NCBI RefSeq assembly: GCF_018069875.1 | Contig: NZ_JAGQDF010000001.1 | Location: forward strand, 434,001 to 498,000 | Direction: 5' to 3' | Source of the DNA: Ideonella alba | GTDB lineage: Bacteria; Pseudomonadota; Gammaproteobacteria; Burkholderiales; Burkholderiaceae_C | Length of the DNA: 64,000 nucleotides | Shown here: positions 31,667 to 40,497 of the stretch, piece by piece | Layout: each line of letters begins with the position of its first letter | Position numbering within the stretch: position 1 is the stretch's first letter | The notes under the pieces: model-generated | What the model was told of the DNA's origin: nothing | Database searches by the model: none | Seen by the model: the letters and a program-made list of their open reading frames with translations, nothing else | Translations under genes and position numbers: made by a program

Positions 31667-33856
31667 TCAGCGCGGGTCCAGCACCAGCCCGCGCCGCTCC
31701 AGCAGCGGCTCGATGTGCGGCTCGTGGCCCACGAGCTGGCGGAACAGGTCCATCGCGTCCTCGCTGCCGCCGCGCGAGAGCAGCCTGGCGCGCAGTGCGT
31801 CGCCGTTCTCGCGCGTCAGGCCGCCACGCGCCATCAGCCAGGCCACGGTGTCGGCGTCGAGCACCTCGCTCCAGACATAGGCGTAGTAGCCGGCCGCATA
31901 GCCACCCATGATGTGGCTGAAGTACGGCGTGCGGTAGCGCGGCGGCACCACCGGCACATCCAGTCCTTCCTCCTTCAGCACGCGCGCCTCGAAGGCCATC
32001 ACGTCGGCGGCCGCGGGCACCTCGCCCGCGCGCAACCGGTGCCAGCGCTGGTCCAGCACTGCCGAAGCCAGGTAGGACGTGGTCATGTAGCCCTGGTTGA
32101 AGCGCTTGGCGCGCGACACCTTCGCCAGCAACTCGGCCGGCATCGGCTCGCCGCTCTGGTGGTGCCGGGCGTAGTGGGCCAGCACGCTGGGCCAGTAGGC
32201 CCAGACCTCGTTGACCTGCGATGGGTACTCGACGAAGTCACGCGGCACGCGGTCCAGGCCGGGGTAGCGGCTGGTGTTGAACATGCCGTGCAGCGCGTGG
32301 CCGAACTCATGGAACAGCGTGTTGACCTCGTCCCAGGTCAGCAAGGTGGGTTCGCCCGCAGGCGGCTTGGGCACGTTGAGGTGGTTGGCCACCACCGGCG
32401 AGGTGCCTTCCAGTGCGTTGTACCGCACGTAGGCGTTCATCCAGGCGCCGCCGCGCTTGGTGGGCCGGGCGTAGAGGTCGGCGATGAACAACGCCAGCAG
32501 CCGGCCATCGTGGTCGAAGACGTCGTAGACCCACACATCCTCGTGGTAGACCGGCAGGTCGGTGCGGCGCCTGAAACGCAGGCCATAGAGCTGCTCGGCG
32601 GCGAAGAACACGCCGCGCTCCAGCACCTGGCGGATCTCGAGGTAGGGCCGCAGCTGGTTCTCGTCAAAGCCATAGCGGGCGGCGCGCAGCTTCTCGGCGT
32701 AGTAGGACCAGTCCCAGGCCTGCAGCGCGAAGCCCGGCCGCTGCCGCGCGGCCTGCTCCTGGTCGATCAAGGCCTGCAGCGCGGCGGCCTCCTGGCGCGC
32801 AGCGGCCACGGCGGCCGGGGTCAGCCGGCGCAGCAGCGCCTGCACGGCCTGCGGGGTGCGGGCGGTCTCGTCCTCCAGCACCTGCGAGGCGTGGTCGGGG
32901 TGTCCCAGCAGTGCCGCGCGCTCCTGGCGCAGGCTCATCACACGGGCCAGCAGCGCGGTGGTGTCGTGGGCATTGCCGCGGCTGCCGCGCGCCACCGAGG
33001 CGCGGTGCAGCCGCTCGCGCAGCGCGCGGTCATGCAAGGCCGCTTCGGCAGGCTGGATCGTGGTGTTCAACAGCGTGATCAGGTACCGGCCCGGCAGGCC
33101 GCGTTGCCGGGCGGCCTCGGCGGCAGCGGCGATCTCGCCAGGGCTCAGCCCCGCCAGCTCCTCGGCGGTGGCGACGACCAGCGCCGAGTCATTCACCTCG
33201 GCCAGCACCGCCTGGTTGAAGCGAGCGCTCAGCGTCGCCAGCTCGGCGTTGAGGGCCCGCATCCGGGCTTTCTGGGTGTCGTCCAGCAGCGCGCCGGCCC
33301 GCACCATGTCCAGGCGGACACGTTCGACCAGGCGCCGTGCCTCGGCGTTGGGCGCGGCCTCGTCGCGCCGGGCGTAGACAGCGTCGACGCGGGCAAACAG
33401 CCGCGGGTTGAGCTGGACGGCGTCACGGTGCGCCGCCAGGCGCGCGGCGTAGTCGCGTTGCAGCTGCTGGCGCGCCGGGTTGGCATCGACCCCCAGCAGG
33501 CTGAACAGCAGCGTGGTGGTGCGCGACAGCAGCCGCCCCGACCGCTCCAGCGCCACCAGCGTGTTGTCGAAGCTCGGCGCCGCGGGGTTGTCGACGATCG
33601 CCTGGATCTCGGCCAGTTGCTCGGCCATGCCGCGCTCCAGGGCTGGCGCAAAGTGCTCGTCGCGGATGCGGTCGAAGGGCGGGTACTGAAGCGGCAGCGG
33701 GCTGATGCTGAACAGCGGGTTGTCCTGCGCGGCCGCGGCGGTCGGCTGCGCCACGGTGTGTCCTGTCAGGCCCATCAGCGCCGCGGCCAGCAGCGGGCCG
33801 AGCAGGGCGCCGGCACGGCCGCGGCGGGGGCTCCCGCCGCTCACCGCGTCACCCAT
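31667..33856 (-). CDS. dcp: exported M3-family peptidyl-dipeptidase (Dcp-like)
   Basis: This 729-residue zinc metallopeptidase has the HEFGH motif at about residues 516-520 and the downstream third-ligand region (FVEYPSQVNEVWAYWP). Family sequences include PLPLQYPPFDRIRDEHFAPAL, AWDWSYYAEKLR, PVVANHLNVPKPP and YFSHIMGGYAAGYYAYVWSEVL. Residues 10-37 carry a signal-type hydrophobic stretch (LLGPLLAAALMGLTG...VAQ), implying a periplasmic enzyme, unlike cytoplasmic E. coli Dcp. The start may be ATG 33856 (16-base overlap) or GTG 33844 (4-base GTGA overlap with the gene upstream). It closes the operon beginning with the MerR gene. Confidence 0.9.
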   Translation of the reverse strand: MGDAVSGGSPRRGRAGALLGPLLAAALMGLTGHTVAQPTAAAAQDNPLFSISPLPLQYPPFDRIRDEHFAPALERGMAEQLAEIQAIVDNPAAPSFDNTLVALERSGRLLSRTTTLLFSLLGVDANPARQQLQRDYAARLAAHRDAVQLNPRLFARVDAVYARRDEAAPNAEARRLVERVRLDMVRAGALLDDTQKARMRALNAELATLSARFNQAVLAEVNDSALVVATAEELAGLSPGEIAAAAEAARQRGLPGRYLITLLNTTIQPAEAALHDRALRERLHRASVARGSRGNAHDTTALLARVMSLRQERAALLGHPDHASQVLEDETARTPQAVQALLRRLTPAAVAAARQEAAALQALIDQEQAARQRPGFALQAWDWSYYAEKLRAARYGFDENQLRPYLEIRQVLERGVFFAAEQLYGLRFRRRTDLPVYHEDVWVYDVFDHDGRLLALFIADLYARPTKRGGAWMNAYVRYNALEGTSPVVANHLNVPKPPAGEPTLLTWDEVNTLFHEFGHALHGMFNTSRYPGLDRVPRDFVEYPSQVNEVWAYWPSVLAHYARHHQSGEPMPAELLAKVSRAKRFNQGYMTTSYLASAVLDQRWHRLRAGEVPAAADVMAFEARVLKEEGLDVPVVPPRYRTPYFSHIMGGYAAGYYAYVWSEVLDADTVAWLMARGGLTRENGDALRARLLSRGGSEDAMDLFRQLVGHEPHIEPLLERRGLVLDPR

Positions 33857-34527
33857 CCGCCGCTGACCGGGAACACCTGGCCCACGAAGCAGGCCGCGGC
33901 CTCGCTGCACAGGTAGGCGGCGAAGCGCGCGTCCTCCTCGGCGCTGACCAGGCGGCCCAGGGGCACCTCGCGCCGCAGGCGGTCCTGGAAGCGCGGGTTG
34001 GCCTGCACCTCGGGGCCGTAGTAGGTCGGGTTGGCGACGAAGTTCTGGGCGATCGCGTTCATCTGGATGCCCAGCGGGGCCAGCTCCAGCGCCACCGACT
34101 GCACGTAGGCCAGCTGGGCGCCGCGCGCGGCGCTGTAGCTGCCGGTGCGCTTCTGGCCGCGCAGCGCGGCGGCGCTGCCCATCAGCAGGATGCGTCCGCG
34201 TCCGCGCTGCACCATCTGCGGCAGCACCGCGGCCACCAGCCGGGGCATCGGGTCCACCAGGTGGGCAAAGACGTGGCGCCATTCGGCGTCGTCGATCTCG
34301 CCGGCCGGCGTGCTGGGCGCGGGCAGCGACAGGTGCAGCAGCAGCACATCGACCTGCCCGGCCTCGCGCACCAGCGCGGCCGGCAGGGCCGGGTCGTCGG
34401 CGAGCGGGCGGGGGTCGGCGATCAGCGTGGCGCCGGCGTCGCGGAAGACCTGGCTCAGCGCCGGGCCCATGAAGTCATCGGACTGCGTCAGCAGCACGCG
34501 CAGGCCGTCAAGGCGGGTGGACAGCAT
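33841..34527 (-). CDS. SDR-fold protein with halohydrin dehalogenase signature
   Basis: This 228-residue protein has the SDR fold but not a dehydrogenase active site. The usual TGxxxGxG nucleotide loop is replaced by T14-x4-F19-x-G21 (TQSDDFMG), and the catalytic Lys of YxxxK is Arg: S118-x12-Y131-x3-R135. These two patterns together are the published signature of halohydrin dehalogenases (HheA-HheG), which close beta-halo alcohols to epoxides without NAD. The region after the active site (IAQNFVANPTYYGPE) and the ending GQVFPVSGGWV also resemble HheC. Length fits the family. It lies 7 bases after the small membrane gene and overlaps the peptidase gene. Activity is not proved; a redundant SDR remains possible. 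Confidence 0.78.
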   Translation of the reverse strand: MLSTRLDGLRVLLTQSDDFMGPALSQVFRDAGATLIADPRPLADDPALPAALVREAGQVDVLLLHLSLPAPSTPAGEIDDAEWRHVFAHLVDPMPRLVAAVLPQMVQRGRGRILLMGSAAALRGQKRTGSYSAARGAQLAYVQSVALELAPLGIQMNAIAQNFVANPTYYGPEVQANPRFQDRLRREVPLGRLVSAEEDARFAAYLCSEAAACFVGQVFPVSGGWVTR

Positions 34528-34534
34528 GGCGGCG

Positions 34535-34879
34535 TCAGTGCGGCGGGTGATCGGGCCCGTCGGCCGCGCGGCGGTCCATCGGGTAGGGGTCGGCCACGTA
34601 GGCCGGCCCCTTCATCACCATCACGATGAATGCGCCGATGGCCACCGTGAGCACGGCGTTCCAGTGCAGGAACAGCAGCGCCAGCACCCAGAAATCCACC
34701 TGGTCGGTGAGGTGGCTGGCTGCGCTGGCGTCCTCACCGACCAGACGCACCAGCAGCGACGGCACCAGCAGCAGCAGCGAGCCGTGGAACAGCACCTTGG
34801 GCAGCAGGCGCAGGATGCGGCGCTCCAGACCGGGCGGCGTGCGTCGGCCGCCGGGCAGGCGCTGGAAGGCATCGACCAT
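34535..34879 (-). CDS. small membrane protein, hypothetical
   Basis: This 114-residue protein has two hydrophobic helices (VLFHGSLLLLVPSLLVRLVG and FWVLALLFLHWNAVLTVAIGAFIVMVM) flanked by charged termini, so it is an inner-membrane protein. No family was recognised. The start MVDAFQRLPGG at 34879 has GAGG nine bases upstream and leaves a 16-base gap after the MerR gene. It is co-transcribed with the MerR gene and the SDR-like gene. Confidence 0.75.
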   Translation of the reverse strand: MVDAFQRLPGGRRTPPGLERRILRLLPKVLFHGSLLLLVPSLLVRLVGEDASAASHLTDQVDFWVLALLFLHWNAVLTVAIGAFIVMVMKGPAYVADPYPMDRRAADGPDHPPH

Positions 34880-34895
34880 GGGTGTCACCTCGGGG

Positions 34896-35876
34896 TCAGG
34901 GCAGGGGCAGACCCTCGTGGCGCGCCAGGCGCTCCAGGGCTGATTCGAACAGCGCCCGCGACGCGCCGGCCACCTGCTGCAGGTAGGCATGCAGCCGGGC
35001 GTCGGCGGTGTCGCGGTGCGCACAGGACGCACTGTAGGCCTCGAAGCTGGAGAGCTGCATCAGCAGTTCCGCCACGTGGCGGGGGCATTCGCAGGCCAGC
35101 GTCGGCGACAGGCCGGCGATGCGGGTCAGGGTGGCGTCGTCGTAGCGCCGCGCGGCCGGCGCGCTGGCGGCGGCGTCGGGCGTGGGCCCGGCGGGTTCGG
35201 TGTCATTTGCCGGCAGGCTGGCCAGCAGCGCCGCCAGCCAGCGGCCCAGGGCCGGGTCGTCCGCCGGCTCGCGCAGCGTGGCCACGCCGGCGTCGCTCAG
35301 GGCCTGCGTGGCGGCCGCGCTGGCGTAGCGGTAGACCACCGCCAGCCGCCGCGCACCGCGGGCCTGACCCAGGGCCGCCACCTCGGGCGGCAGCGTTAGC
35401 GGCAACGTGGGGGCGTGCCACAGCAGCAGGGTGGCATCCTGGCTGGCCTGCAGGGCCTGCTGCAGTGACGGGTAAACGGCCAGCGGCGGCACGCTGGGCA
35501 TCAGTTGCCGGGCCACTGCCGGGCGCTGCAGGCGCGCGGCCAGCGCCGCACCCACCACCGCCAGGTGTGGCGCCGCGGCGCGGCGGCTGCCACCCGGCGC
35601 CGGCTGGGCCAGGCGCTGCAGTTCCGGCGACGGCATCGCCGCGATCGCGCTGATCGCATGGCCCTGGCTGGTCAGCTGGCGCAGCAGCAGCACACGCTGC
35701 ACATCGGCCGGCGAGTACCGCCGGTGCCCCGACGGCGCCGTGGCGGGCTTCACCGCCTGGTGGCGTTGCTCCCAGATGCGCAGCGTGGCCACCGGCATGC
35801 CCGCCAGCCGGGCCACGGCGCCACTGCGCAGGCCGGCAGCGGTGTCGTCAGGGGGCGGGGGACGGCGTGGCGCCAT
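34896..35876 (-). CDS. MerR-family regulator of the photolyase/SDR cluster
   Basis: This 326-residue protein has a MerR helix-turn-helix (SGAVARLAGMPVATLRIWEQR, HRRYSPADVQRVLLLRQLT), then a domain of about 130 residues of CarH/LitR-like arrangement. I cannot find a cobalamin-binding DxHxxG motif, so if related to light-sensing LitR/CarH it may not use B12. Near the C-terminus it has a Cys-rich conserved segment (LACECPRHVAELLMQLSSFEAYSASC). ATG 35876 lies just downstream of the inverted repeat at 35895-35917. It is divergent from the photolyase genes and heads the leftward operon. Confidence 0.85.
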   Translation of the reverse strand: MAPRRPPPPDDTAAGLRSGAVARLAGMPVATLRIWEQRHQAVKPATAPSGHRRYSPADVQRVLLLRQLTSQGHAISAIAAMPSPELQRLAQPAPGGSRRAAAPHLAVVGAALAARLQRPAVARQLMPSVPPLAVYPSLQQALQASQDATLLLWHAPTLPLTLPPEVAALGQARGARRLAVVYRYASAAATQALSDAGVATLREPADDPALGRWLAALLASLPANDTEPAGPTPDAAASAPAARRYDDATLTRIAGLSPTLACECPRHVAELLMQLSSFEAYSASCAHRDTADARLHAYLQQVAGASRALFESALERLARHEGLPLP

Positions 35877-35894: not shown

Positions 35895-35917
35895 ATGAGT
35901 TGGAAAAAGCAACTCAT
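35895..35917. promoter_or_regulatory. inverted-repeat operator between MerR gene and photolyase genes
   Basis: ATGAGTTG (35895-35902) and CAACTCAT (35910-35917) form a perfect 8-base inverted repeat with a 7-base spacer. A third GAGTTG half-site occurs at 35950-35955, and TGAGAT/GATGAG variants flank it. A -10-like TATATT on the minus strand lies at 35926-35931. The site sits between the MerR start and that -10 box, as expected for autorepression by the MerR protein while controlling the divergent photolyase promoter. Confidence 0.65.
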
Positions 35918-35973: not shown

Positions 35974-36147
35974 ATGCCGTCACCCCGGGCCGCCAGATCG
36001 CCATCGTTCAAGGGCAACAAGCAGGCCCTGCCCAGCAAGCCCTGCGCGGCCTGCGGCCGCCCGATGAGCTGGCGCAAGCGCTGGGCGGCCTGCTGGGACG
36101 AGGTGCGCTACTGCTCCGAGGCCTGCCGCCGGGCGCGCCGACCATGA
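35974..36147 (+). CDS. DUF2256 small zinc-ribbon-like protein
   Basis: This 57-residue protein matches the DUF2256 pattern: KGNKQALPSKPCAACGRPM, then WRKRWAACWDEVRYCSEACRR, with two CxxC-type cysteine pairs likely to bind zinc. This family commonly occurs beside photolyase/cryptochrome genes. ATG 35974 is the first in-frame start with family similarity; an earlier one at 35953 would overlap the operator half-site. Its stop overlaps the next gene by 4 bases. Function unknown. Confidence 0.88.
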   Translation: MPSPRAARSPSFKGNKQALPSKPCAACGRPMSWRKRWAACWDEVRYCSEACRRARRP

Positions 36148-37706
36148 CCCGTCTGCGCCACCTGGTGCTGGTGCTGGGCGATCAGCTGGATCTGGACGCC
36201 GCGGCCTTCGATGGTTTCGACCCAGCCCAGGACGCGGTGTGGATGGCCGAGGTGGCCGAGGAGTCCACCCACGTCTGGTCCAGCCAGCCCCGCATCGCGC
36301 TGTTCCTGGCGGCGATGCGCCACTTCGCCCAGGCCGTGCGGTCCGCGGGCCGGCCGCTGCACTACCGGCGGCTGGACGATCCGGACAACCGCGGCACGCT
36401 GGCGGCCGAACTGGCGGCCGCCTTGCAGACCCTGTCGCCGGCGCGCGTGCTGATGACCGCGCCGGGCGACTGGCGCGTGTGGCAGGCGCTGAAGGAGGTG
36501 GTGGCCGAGGCGGGGCTGGAGTTGGAGCTGCGCGAAGACCGGCACTTCTTCTGCACGGTGCGCGAGTTCGCCGCGCATGCCCGCGGGCGCCGCACGCTGC
36601 GCCTGGAGTTCTTCTACCGCGAACTGCGCCGGCGCCACGGCGTGCTGATGCAGGGCCCCGGCGCGGACGCACAGCCGATCGGCGGCCAGTGGAACTTCGA
36701 CGCCGACAACCGCGCGCCGTTCGGGCCCGCAGGGCCCGGCGCGGTGCCGCCGCGCAGCCGCTTCGAGCCCGACGACATCACCCGCGAGGTGCTGGCCCTG
36801 GTGGCCCGCCGCTTTGCCGACCATCCGGGTGCGCTGAACCACTTCGCCTGGCCGGTCACGCGCGCCCAGGCCCTGCAGGCGCTGCAGCAGTTCATCGACC
36901 AGCGCCTGCCGCATTTCGGCCGCACGCAGGACGCGATGTGGCCTGGCGAGCCCTGGCTGTACCACTCGCACCTGTCGGCGGCGCTGAACCTGAAGCTGCT
37001 GTCGGCGCGCGAGGTGGTGCAGGCCGCCGAAGCGGCCTTCCACGCCGGCCACGTGGGCATTGAGAGCGCCGAGGGCTTCATCCGCCAGATCCTGGGCTGG
37101 CGCGAGTACGTGCGCGGCATCTACTGGACGCAGATGCCCGGCTATCTGCAGCGCAACGCGCTGCAGGCCGACCAGGACCTGCCGGCCTGGTACTGGAGCG
37201 GCCGCACCGACATGGCCTGCCTGCGCGAGGCGATCACGCAGACCCTGGCGCTCGGCTACGCCCACCACATCCAGCGCCTGATGGTCACCGGCCTGTTCGC
37301 GCTGCTGCTGGGCGTGCGGCCGCAGCAGGTGCATGCCTGGTACCTGTCGGTCTACGTGGACGCGGTGGAATGGGTCGAGCTGCCCAACACCCTGGGCATG
37401 AGCCAGTACGCCGACGGCGGCCTGATGGCCAGCAAACCCTATGTGGCCACCGGGCGCTACATCGAGCGCATGGGCGGCGGCTGCGCCGGTTGCCGCTACG
37501 ATCCGGCGCAGCGGGTGGGCGAGCGCGCCTGCCCCTTCACCACGCTGTACTGGGACTTCCTGGAGCGCCACCAGGCGCTGCTGGCGCGCAACCCGCGGAT
37601 GTCCCTGCAGGTGAAGAACCTGGCGCGGCTGACCGCGGCCGAGCGCGACGCCGTGCGCCAGCGCGCCGACGCGATCCGCGCGGGCCAGGTGGGGGTGCCG
37701 GCATGA
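36144..37706 (+). CDS. FeS-type bacterial cryptochrome/(6-4) photolyase
   Basis: This 520-residue protein matches the iron-sulfur bacterial cryptochrome/photolyase family (PhrB/CryB type), which repairs (6-4) photoproducts. The N-terminal domain (LVLVLGDQLDLDAAAF) binds an antenna chromophore. In the C-terminal FAD domain, four cysteines at 359 (DMACLRE), 447 and 450 (GGCAGCRYD) and 463 (ERACPF) have exactly the spacing of the 4Fe-4S ligands of Agrobacterium PhrB (350, 438, 441, 454). It lacks the usual class I photolyase active-site sequences. It is translated in overlap with the DUF2256 gene. Confidence 0.93.
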   Translation: MTRLRHLVLVLGDQLDLDAAAFDGFDPAQDAVWMAEVAEESTHVWSSQPRIALFLAAMRHFAQAVRSAGRPLHYRRLDDPDNRGTLAAELAAALQTLSPARVLMTAPGDWRVWQALKEVVAEAGLELELREDRHFFCTVREFAAHARGRRTLRLEFFYRELRRRHGVLMQGPGADAQPIGGQWNFDADNRAPFGPAGPGAVPPRSRFEPDDITREVLALVARRFADHPGALNHFAWPVTRAQALQALQQFIDQRLPHFGRTQDAMWPGEPWLYHSHLSAALNLKLLSAREVVQAAEAAFHAGHVGIESAEGFIRQILGWREYVRGIYWTQMPGYLQRNALQADQDLPAWYWSGRTDMACLREAITQTLALGYAHHIQRLMVTGLFALLLGVRPQQVHAWYLSVYVDAVEWVELPNTLGMSQYADGGLMASKPYVATGRYIERMGGGCAGCRYDPAQRVGERACPFTTLYWDFLERHQALLARNPRMSLQVKNLARLTAAERDAVRQRADAIRAGQVGVPA

Positions 37707-38893
37707 GCCTGGCCGAGTTCCTACCCACACCCGAAGCCGCCCGCGCCCGGCTGGCCGCGGTCCGCCCCGCCGACTACGCGCGCACGCGCAACGCGCTGGA
37801 TGGCGCCGTGACCCGGCTGTCGCCCTACATCACCCACGGCCTGCTGAGCCCGCCCGAGGTGCTGGCCGCGCTGGCCGCGCGCCACCGTCTGCACCTGGGA
37901 CACCGCTTCGTGATGGAGCTGGGCTGGCGCGCCTGGTTCCGGCACCTGTGGCAGACCCGCGGTGATGCGATCCTGCGCTCGCTGCATCCCGGGCCGCTGC
38001 CCGACAGCGCCTACAGCGACGTGCTGCCCGCCGACATCCGCCAGGCCCGCAGCGGCGTGCCGGTGATTGACCAGGCGGTGCGCACGCTCTACGCCAGCGG
38101 CTACCTGCACAACCATGCCCGGATGTGGCTGGCCAGCTACGTGGTCCACCTGCGCAAGGTGCACTGGCGCGCCGGGGCCGACTGGATGCTGGGCCACCTG
38201 CTGGACGGCGACCTGGCCAGCAACCACCTCAGCTGGCAGTGGGTGGCCGGCACCGGCAGCCACAAGCCCTACCTGTTCAACGCCGACAACGTGGCCCGCT
38301 ACGCACCCGCGACCTGGCACAGCGCCGACAGCGTGCTGGACACCAGCTACGAGGCGCTGGACGCCCTGGCGCGTCGCCCGCATGCGGTGCCGATGCGGCC
38401 CTCGCTCGAGGGTCTCGACGAGCCCGCCCTGACCGGCCTGCCGCCCGGCGCCACGCCAGCGCGGGCGCAGGACGTGGCCGGGCGTGATGTCTGGCTGGTG
38501 CATCCCTGGGCGCTGGGCGACCCGCCGGCCGATCTGCCGCCGGGCCACCTGTGCCTGGGCTGGTGGCCCGCCGATCACCATGCCGCCTGGCCGTGGAGCG
38601 CGGCGCGCTGGGCCTTCGTGGGCACCCGGCTGTCGGCGCTGACCTGCCGGCAGTGGCACGCCAGCACCGGGCAGTTGGCCGCCGCGCTGGCCGGCGCGCG
38701 CTCGGTGCAGACGCTGGCCGACCCGCATGCCGACCCCTGGCTGCCGCCGCTGGTGCGGCGCCGCGCCGCGCCGGCGCTGTTCCCCGAGCCCGACCGCCCC
38801 TGCGCCTCGTTCTCGGCCTGGTGGTCGCGCAGCACCCGCGGCCTGCGGGACCTGTCCGAGTTGCCCGCGCTGCGCGGCGAGCTCATCGCATGA
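37703..38893 (+). CDS. antenna-less photolyase-like FAD-binding protein
   Basis: This 396-residue protein lacks the N-terminal Rossmann (antenna) domain of photolyases. Residues about 118-195 show a near-canonical photolyase FAD-binding core: GVPVIDQAVRTLYASGYLHN, MWLASYVVHL, GHLLDGDLASNHLSWQWVAG, then SHKPYLFNADN. A C-terminal domain of about 140 residues (DVWLVHPWALGD onwards) has no family I recognise. The 4-base overlaps with both neighbours show coordinated translation. It could be a partner or light sensor rather than a repair enzyme; that is speculative. Confidence 0.82.
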   Translation: MSLAEFLPTPEAARARLAAVRPADYARTRNALDGAVTRLSPYITHGLLSPPEVLAALAARHRLHLGHRFVMELGWRAWFRHLWQTRGDAILRSLHPGPLPDSAYSDVLPADIRQARSGVPVIDQAVRTLYASGYLHNHARMWLASYVVHLRKVHWRAGADWMLGHLLDGDLASNHLSWQWVAGTGSHKPYLFNADNVARYAPATWHSADSVLDTSYEALDALARRPHAVPMRPSLEGLDEPALTGLPPGATPARAQDVAGRDVWLVHPWALGDPPADLPPGHLCLGWWPADHHAAWPWSAARWAFVGTRLSALTCRQWHASTGQLAAALAGARSVQTLADPHADPWLPPLVRRRAAPALFPEPDRPCASFSAWWSRSTRGLRDLSELPALRGELIA

Positions 38894-40497
38894 GCGACGC
38901 CGCGCCGCAACTCGTGTGGTTCAAGCGCGATCTGCGCGTCGCCGACCACGCCCCCTTGGCGCAGGCCGCGCAGCACGGCCCGGTGGTGGCGCTGTTCGTC
39001 TACGAACCCAGCCTGCTGCATTCCGCCGAGTTCGACGCCTGCCACCTGGACTTCATCAACGACGCCCTGGCGGCATTGCGCGAGGCGCTGGCCCGGCGCG
39101 GCTGCCCGCTGCTGATCCGGGTGGGCGAGTGCCCGCAGGTGCTGCAGGACCTGCAGGCGTCACTGGGCTTTCGGGCCCTGTGGAGCCACGAGGAAACCGG
39201 GCTGGAGGTGACCTACGCACGCGACCGTCGGGTGGCAGCCTGGTGCCGCGCCCAGGGCATCGCCTGGCACGAGATCCCGCAGTGCGGCGTGGTCCGCCGC
39301 CTGCGCAACCGCGACGGCTGGGCCGAGCGCTGGGCACAGCGCATGTCGGCGCCGCTGGTGGCCCCGCCGGTGGCGCTGCGCACCGTGGCGGCGCTGCACA
39401 ACCTGGGCGAGGTCGCGGCGCAGCACCCGATCCGCAGCGCCGCCGAACTGGGCGTGGCGGGCGCATCCCGCCCCGAGGCCCAGCGCGGCGGCGAGCGGCG
39501 CGGGCAGGCGGTGCTGCAGTCCTTCCTGCGTGAGCGCGGTGTCGACTACCGGCGTGGCATGTCCTCGCCCACCACCGGCTTTCAGGCCTGCTCGCGCCTG
39601 AGTGCGCACCTGGCCTGGGGGTCGCTGTCGCTGCGCCAGGTGCACCAGGCCTGCGAGCAGCGCCGCGCGGCAATCGATGAGGCGCGCGCCGTGGGCGCGG
39701 CGGTGGATCCGCGCTGGCCCGCGTCGCTGCAGTCCTTCAGCAGCCGGCTGCGCTGGCACTGCCACTTCATGCAGAAGCTGGAGGACGAGCCGCGCATCGA
39801 GTTCGAGAATTTCTCGCACGCCTTTGACGGCCTGCGCGAACCAGGCGCCCACCCCGAGCGCCTGGCCGCCTGGTGCGCCGGCCGCACCGGCTACCCCTTG
39901 ATCGACGCCTGCATGCGCGCGCTGCACAGCGGCGGCTGGATCAACTTCCGCATGCGGGCGATGCTGGTGTCCTTCGCGGCGCAGCACCTGTGGCTGCACT
40001 GGCGCGATTTCGCACCCTTCCTGGCGCGCCAGTTCATCGACTTCGAGCCGGGCATCCACTACAGCCAGGTGCAGATGCAAAGCGGCACCACCGGCATCAA
40101 TGCGATCCGCATCTACTCGCCCATCAAGCAGGCGCTGGACCAGGACCCCGAGGGCGTGTTCATCCGCCGCCACGTGCCGGAGCTGGCCGCGGTGCCCACC
40201 GGCTTCCTGGCCCAGCCCGAGCGCATGCCGACGGCCTTGCAGCAGCGCCTGGGCGTGCGCATCGGCCACGACTACCCGGCGCCGATCGTCGATCACGCCA
40301 GCGCCTACCGCGCCGCGCGCGAGCGCATCGGCGCCTTGCGCAAGACCCCGGCTGCGCGCACCGAGGCCGAGCGCGTGCTGGCGCGGCATGGCAGCCGCCG
40401 CAGCGGCCTGCCGGCCACCGAGCGGCGCCCGCCCCGGCGCCCCCGCGACAGCGGCGGGCGGGCGCAGCTGTCCCTGTGGGGGGACGAGCCGACCTAA
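38890..40497 (+). CDS. deoxyribodipyrimidine photolyase/cryptochrome-family protein
   Basis: This 535-residue protein has the complete N-terminal Rossmann domain (QLVWFKRDLRVADHAPL) and a C-terminal FAD domain (SRLSAHLAWGSLSLRQVHQ, TGYPLIDACMRALHSGGWIN, RMRAMLVSFAAQHLWLHW). The canonical terminal FNP motif is replaced by an unusual GINAIRIYSPIKQ. It is the third flavin-type photolyase-family protein in one operon. It probably repairs CPD lesions or serves as a cryptochrome. The basic C-terminal tail (about 40 residues rich in Arg and Pro) may bind DNA. Confidence 0.9.
   Translation: MSDAAPQLVWFKRDLRVADHAPLAQAAQHGPVVALFVYEPSLLHSAEFDACHLDFINDALAALREALARRGCPLLIRVGECPQVLQDLQASLGFRALWSHEETGLEVTYARDRRVAAWCRAQGIAWHEIPQCGVVRRLRNRDGWAERWAQRMSAPLVAPPVALRTVAALHNLGEVAAQHPIRSAAELGVAGASRPEAQRGGERRGQAVLQSFLRERGVDYRRGMSSPTTGFQACSRLSAHLAWGSLSLRQVHQACEQRRAAIDEARAVGAAVDPRWPASLQSFSSRLRWHCHFMQKLEDEPRIEFENFSHAFDGLREPGAHPERLAAWCAGRTGYPLIDACMRALHSGGWINFRMRAMLVSFAAQHLWLHWRDFAPFLARQFIDFEPGIHYSQVQMQSGTTGINAIRIYSPIKQALDQDPEGVFIRRHVPELAAVPTGFLAQPERMPTALQQRLGVRIGHDYPAPIVDHASAYRAARERIGALRKTPAARTEAERVLARHGSRRSGLPATERRPPRRPRDSGGRAQLSLWGDEPT

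Follow-up and report, generated by a model that had tools for sequence, protein, structure and literature searches.

What kind of enzyme is encoded by a gene of the short-chain dehydrogenase/reductase (SDR) type that lacks the hallmarks of an NAD(P)-dependent reductase, and how did it come to stand opposite a photolyase operon in Ideonella alba? The gene, hheD, lies on the minus strand at positions 33841..34527 of a 64,000-nucleotide stretch of contig NZ_JAGQDF010000001.1 (positions 434,001 to 498,000 of the forward strand), here called the window, and specifies a predicted protein of 228 residues from an ATG start. Its motifs, its matches in the Protein Data Bank (PDB), a structural model, and a quick phylogeny all point to a D-type halohydrin dehalogenase (HHDH). 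HHDHs turn halo-alcohols into epoxides. From sequence comparison and modeling, it is very probable that the product is an ordinary member of this known enzyme kind and that its gene reached the locus horizontally, as a single gene, coming under the promoter of a MerR-type regulator.

Motifs and Predicted Mechanism

The hheD product carries both diagnostic HHDH motifs in exact form, as an earlier interpretation made from the letters of the window alone (the sequence-only reading) had stated. The segment T14-QSDD-F19-M-G21 matches T-x4-F-x-G, the nucleophile-pocket motif (T-x4-F/Y-x-G in HHDHs), and falls at the end of the first β strand (E10-14) in an AlphaFold2 model, and S118, Y131, and R135 make up the catalytic triad S-x12-Y-x3-R. 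The same reading had found the classical SDR signature of a TGxxxGxG cofactor loop plus YxxxK to be missing, and this too is borne out: no TGxxx[AG]xG glycine motif is present, and Arg takes the place of the catalytic Lys. Excerpts of the review that gives the HHDH motifs report that 19 enzymes, selected among those identified by these motifs, were active (PMC4989007).

The same genome has nine further SDR-type matches (E ≤ 1e-8), and comparison with them places these features in context. None of the nine has S-x12-Y-x3-R, seven have S-x12-Y-x3-K, seven have the glycine motif, and a string resembling the first HHDH motif occurs in one. Because the host SDRs differ in this way, this set of features does not arise from the SDR fold by chance. 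With the first motif relaxed to T-x4-[FYW]-x-G and the second kept as S-x12-Y-x3-R, all 80 of the best relatives from a contig collection have both, and 0 of 80 have the glycine motif. Of 57 loci from genome searches, which lie partly on the same contigs as those 80 (e.g., L005 and L062), 56 have both motifs; the exception, L015, reads T-x4-F-x-A. The ratio of nonsynonymous to synonymous divergence (dN/dS, NG86) is approximately 0.25 (0.12/0.49 and 0.13/0.52 versus relatives L048 and L049), which shows purifying selection on hheD. The possibility that the N-terminus was taken from the start region of the adjoining peptidase, which shares M-x-x-T-R-L, is ruled out, since MTSTRLDG also opens L048, L049, and L050.

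By the established HHDH mechanism, S118 would hold the substrate hydroxyl, Y131 would serve as the base, and R135 would lower the pKa of Y131. The space that accommodates NAD(P) in SDRs would here be a halide/nucleophile pocket, with the T-x4-F-x-G loop as its lining. A vicinal haloalcohol would be closed to an epoxide plus halide in a reaction that is reversible, also with other small anions. HHDHs as a class release halide from vicinal haloalcohols, open epoxides with azide or cyanide, bind no NAD(P), and form homotetramers; among these traits, the lack of NAD(P) binding would agree with the missing glycine motif. The sequence suggests that the hheD product is catalytically active.

Fold and Placement Among Known HHDHs

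A phmmer search of the PDB ranks 7b73 (8.7e-93) and 8xxb (4.8e-85) at the top, followed by HheB (4zd6, 4.4e-44), with reductases appearing from approximately 1e-19, and a profile built from 44 sequences leaves the leading order unchanged. According to the Foldseek titles, 7b73 is HheD2, and 8xxb is a triple-mutant form of HheD8. The AlphaFold2 single-chain model of the hheD product (predicted local distance difference test 92.3; predicted template modeling score, pTM, 0.90) aligns with HheD2 in Foldseek at a template modeling (TM) score of 0.94-0.95, a root-mean-square deviation of 1.0-1.2 Å, and 62-63% identity; the next fold matches are HheD8 (61% identity) and then HheB. In both sequence and fold, known HHDHs are nearer to the product than NAD-binding SDRs are. 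The identities to HheD2 and HheD8 in these fold alignments also lie within the range of 57-95% that excerpts of PMC4989007 give for HheD19-HheD38 relative to verified D-type enzymes.

The three solved enzymes provide useful points of reference. HheD2 shares both motifs with the window protein and comes from the marine gammaproteobacterium HTCC2207, in which the translation of locus L082 is identical to 7b73 across all 224 residues. It differs in its own neighborhood, where an upstream gene, GNAT-like by eye, is common to 10 loci of the SAR92/Porticoccaceae type. HheD8, the second-best fold match, was crystallized as a triple mutant with chloride. HheB (4zd6, 5b12) is likewise a solved HHDH with a similar fold (TM 0.92-0.93, 38-39% identity) but belongs to another HHDH subtype.

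A quick tree of 106 rows, in which five of the nine host SDRs are included and 42 of 103 inner branches are open, splits the HHDH rows from those five SDRs with a Shimodaira-Hasegawa-like approximate likelihood-ratio test (SH-aLRT) support of 99. The window protein falls in an eight-row group (SH-aLRT 99) together with Ideonella sp. A 288 and other Burkholderiales/betaproteobacterial records, and this group is nested in a larger one that contains HheD2. The HHDH assignment, for which the sequence-only reading had proposed such a phylogeny as a check, thus holds in PDB search, fold, and tree: the protein groups with solved D-type HHDHs rather than NAD-binding SDRs and sits among D-type relatives, apart from the five host proteins.

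Locus and Origin of the Arrangement

On the minus strand, hheD is the third of four co-oriented genes. It is preceded by genes for a MerR-type regulator (34896..35876, 326 aa, with a helix-turn-helix (HTH) match in Pfam) and a 116-residue protein, mem116 (34535..34885), and is followed by one for an M3-family, Dcp-like peptidase (31667..33844; Pfam Peptidase_M3, 1.2e-117). The peptidase has a signal peptide by eye and scores 793 bits against the NCBIfam Dcp model, below its cut-off of 944. The hydrophobic character of mem116 is likewise judged by eye; this protein has no match in Pfam or NCBIfam, and 40 of 250 family genomes, the window's own among them, encode a homologue, in some cases adjoining photolyase genes. 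Apart from assignments made by eye, conclusions on neighborhood genes are based on matches from tblastn, Pfam, NCBIfam, or the PDB. With start codons as chosen for the regulator, mem116, and the peptidase (GTG in the last), the successive spacings are 10 nt, 7 nt, and a 4-nt overlap between the hheD stop and the peptidase start, and the four genes are probably co-transcribed. The regulator does lie opposite a photolyase operon, as the sequence-only reading had described; its two-gene picture of the transcription unit needs enlarging, with the 116-residue protein and the M3 peptidase also part of the co-oriented set.

The divergent promoter region contains an inverted repeat, TGAGTTGGAAAAAGCAACTCA (35896..35916), a candidate operator that congener G313 keeps apart from single changes in an arm and in the spacer. 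Beyond it, on the plus strand, the photolyase operon begins with a small DUF2256 protein (35974..36147; Pfam PF10013, 7e-21) and continues with a deoxyribodipyrimidine photolyase-related protein (DPRP; 36144..37706; PF04244, 8.4e-75), the photolyase-like PhlA (37700..38893, start approximate), which has a partial FAD_binding_7 domain (PF03441, 1.6e-23, profile positions 2-131 of 203), and the cryptochrome/photolyase-family protein CryB (38890..40497; PF03441, 4.1e-65; PF00875, 3.8e-22).

Comparison with congeners suggests how this arrangement arose. G313, the nearest congener with the locus, has the order M3 peptidase-mem116-MerR-DPRP-PhlA-CryB at 79-89% protein identity, with mem116 directly adjoining the peptidase and no hheD between them, and its genome shows no hheD anywhere at E 1e-40. 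In G301 (80% complete), the MerR-mem116 pair is followed by a SOUL-domain gene, again with no hheD in a 1e-40 search. Three of the 16 sampled genomes of the genus carry hheD, own included; the two genus-mate copies are 62-63% identical to that of the window and fall elsewhere in the quick tree, and the nearest hheD among the relatives listed is that of Ideonella sp. A 288 (82%). Because G313 has the locus without hheD and the genus-mate copies are not the nearest kin of the window's hheD, recent acquisition of hheD as a single gene by horizontal transfer is likeliest. The photolyase-linked operon would already have existed, and insertion of hheD downstream of mem116 and ahead of the M3-peptidase gene would have put the new gene under the promoter of the MerR regulator. 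The combination of hheD with this regulator and photolyase operon is seen in the window's genome alone, and its placement is unusual. A plasmid-borne element was also considered and rejected, with no match at 1e-40 in a plasmid collection.

Alternative Explanations

Had hheD instead been ancestral at the locus, it must have been lost in G313 and G301. Single-gene loss is easy, and just three congeners, the window's own included, are seen with the MerR-mem116 pair, but hheD is absent in two of those three as well as in the other MerR-photolyase loci examined in the family, and its kinship departs from that of the genus. We therefore regard ancestry followed by loss as unlikely and the change as probably a gain. 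Far less credible still is the notion that the protein is an ordinary NAD(P)-dependent SDR whose catalytic Lys and glycine loop have merely drifted away. Pfam and NCBIfam name generic SDR families alone (none above the NCBIfam cut-off among the 25 shown), and SDR genes with an ordinary glycine loop adjoin photolyase genes in genomes G425 and G366 and a MerR gene in G333. The products of these genes are, however, just 29-33% alike to the window protein and keep TGxxGGIG, whereas in the latter the HHDH hallmarks have changed jointly and are kept in each of the 80 best relatives; solved HHDHs, moreover, are its best matches, far ahead of reductases.

A D-type HHDH might also natively open or scavenge epoxides, or perform another anion-coupled reaction, with dehalogenation the assayable reverse reaction, an account to which we give an appreciable chance without preferring it. 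Known HHDHs open epoxides with several anions, according to excerpts of PMC4989007. In three loci, hheD is directly downstream of an epoxide hydrolase gene (Pseudomonas neustonica L074, 9000-10672; Halopseudomonas oceani L103; H. sabulinigri L107), and in four it stands behind a glyoxalase I gene (three labeled Comamonadaceae or Limnohabitans, one Akkermansia), neighbors that suggest electrophile detoxification. The best PDB match of the L074 hydrolase is EphA (2.7e-80), and the L103 and L107 copies are 82-90% identical to the L074 protein; the pairing fits, as expected, a putative haloalcohol-epoxide-diol route, in a lineage where excerpts of PMC6922532 place HheD12-type enzymes. Against such a role, a search of the window's genome for that epoxide hydrolase at E 1e-15, run with no positive control, found nothing, and PF06441 likewise had no match there, its control being positive in 1 of 14 genomes. 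Neighbor families, furthermore, are each confined to at most 10 of the 80 loci. SAR92/Porticoccaceae-type loci account for the largest neighbor sets, and some smaller clusters cross clades, such as SDR-type genes in nine loci.

The MerR Regulator and Possible Light Control

The regulator invites comparison with LitR proteins. Excerpts of PMC9758184 describe light-regulated Pseudomonas photolyase clusters that include an SDR gene and a MerR of LitR type, a LitR of class III (a class mainly of Burkholderia) whose spectrum shifts with light, and TGTACA-type operators belonging to the Pseudomonas class II LitR. As in the pmlR1 region of that account, a MerR-type regulator here adjoins photolyase and SDR-family genes; the SDR-family gene is annotated there as a short-chain dehydrogenase and is assigned here to the HHDHs, and the present regulator differs from LitR of that region in its modeled HTH, Rossmann-like, and helical parts and in having no B12-binding Pfam match. 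By this analogy and from the model, the unit may be under light control. Among 18 aligned MerR relatives, a C-terminal C-x-C-x2-H...C pattern (C262, C264, H267, and C285) is invariant and is possibly a cofactor or metal site. The protein reaches 25.6 bits against the CarH NCBIfam model, whose cut-off is 400. A conserved MerR partner of hheD is ruled out, as tblastn with the window regulator finds no match at 1e-6 in the 80 best hheD loci of the contig collection, and its HTH part alone finds none at 1e-4.

Several observations weigh against an ordinary D-type enzyme that arrived horizontally under a MerR promoter. Light control would depend on a low-confidence model of the regulator (pTM 0.44), with an N-terminal HTH, Rossmann-like middle, and helical C-terminus, for which the eight top-ranked Foldseek matches, all CarH chains, are weak (E 1.3e-4 to 1.0e-3; whole-chain TM 0.21-0.24); Pfam identifies the HTH only, without the B12-binding match of class I LitR/CarH proteins. 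In the quick tree, the long HheB branch falls inside the D group, making the subtype boundary there unsure, and the 42 open inner branches count on the same side. Composition gives no foreign mark and is uninformative as a sign of transfer, the third-position GC content of hheD (0.96) being near that of its neighbors (0.90-0.94). The argument for gain over loss, finally, draws on only two other congeners with the MerR-mem116 pair, G313 and the incomplete G301.

Distribution of D-Type HHDHs

The assertion of the sequence-only reading that HHDHs are rare does not survive wider sampling. Among 300 genomes sampled from the order, 26, own included, have a relative at E 1e-30 or better (21 of the 25 others at 57-71% identity and four at 39-42%), and 12 of the 120 nearest relatives carry hheD at 1e-40, again counting the window's own. 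One other family has the gene in 22 of 36 genomes, at 40-70% identity, and a class-wide draw yields 5 of 369, own included. The contig collection contains at least 278 confirmed relatives, the best 80 of which are 61-82% identical to the window protein. HHDHs of D type are not rare.

Photolyase Linkage Elsewhere

Does the proximity of an HHDH gene to photolyase genes recur? Such linkage is uncommon: a photolyase match is found in three of the 80 best contig-collection loci, 51 of which have at least 3 kb on both sides of hheD. At L049 it lies several kb off, on the other strand. In L118 (10001-14000; from a metagenome-assembled genome, MAG) and L121 (Thauera sp. 2A1), a photolyase gene begins approximately 110-120 bp downstream of hheD, with a DPRP gene next in line, all co-directional. 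Among the 57 genome-search loci, with flanks of at most ~1.5 kb, three have a photolyase, all from g26, a genus of the same order with genomes of 1.2-2.1 Mb. A divergent HHDH-like gene is present in eight of nine g26 genomes and faces a CryB-type photolyase gene in six of eight loci (L245-L248, L251, and L252, exemplified by L245:8739-9404 and L245:7032-8534), with none shown at L249 and L250. The g26 protein is 38-43% identical to that of the window and has both motifs in the four members checked (L024-L027); the best PDB match of L024 is HheD8 (8e-57), and the g26 form may represent a separate subtype.

Overall, a photolyase-domain gene lies within ~12 kb in 8 of 62 HHDH-bearing genomes (six g26, G325, and the window's own) versus 0.71 expected, or by genus in 3 of 28 versus 0.35 expected (2 of 27 after removal of the window's genus), in post hoc counts that use rounded genome sizes and leave contig ends uncorrected. 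G325 (gene L128) and L049 share the small hheD group of the window in the quick tree; L048, the closest relative among those listed, has no photolyase match within its 20 kb. The recurrence of HHDH-photolyase linkage is weakly suggestive. It is distinctly unlikely, in our estimate, that HHDHs have been drawn repeatedly and independently into photolyase loci, in the window's genome, Thauera sp. 2A1 with its related MAG, and g26, with part of the family induced by light and acting in photo-oxidative stress. No open-licence PMC paper was found to contain both "halohydrin dehalogenase" and "photolyase," and none was recognized, from titles and abstract openings, as treating the native role or gene context of HHDHs.

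In the SDR-family proteins at the photolyase loci L190 (G425) and L167 (G366) and at the MerR locus L143 (G333), TGxxGGIG is intact, S-x12-Y-x3-K/R is absent, and by eye the usual catalytic Tyr is missing (NHEAIAAAK).

The protein enlarges the D subtype of a family employed in biocatalysis, and two congeneric genomes, one carrying hheD at this operon position and the other lacking it there, are now available. If the recurrent linkage to photolyase genes is real, it offers a testable lead on the cellular role of D-type HHDHs, namely in light-stress chemistry; were the family indeed drawn repeatedly into such loci, these HHDHs might, for example, remove epoxides or halohydrins formed under light.

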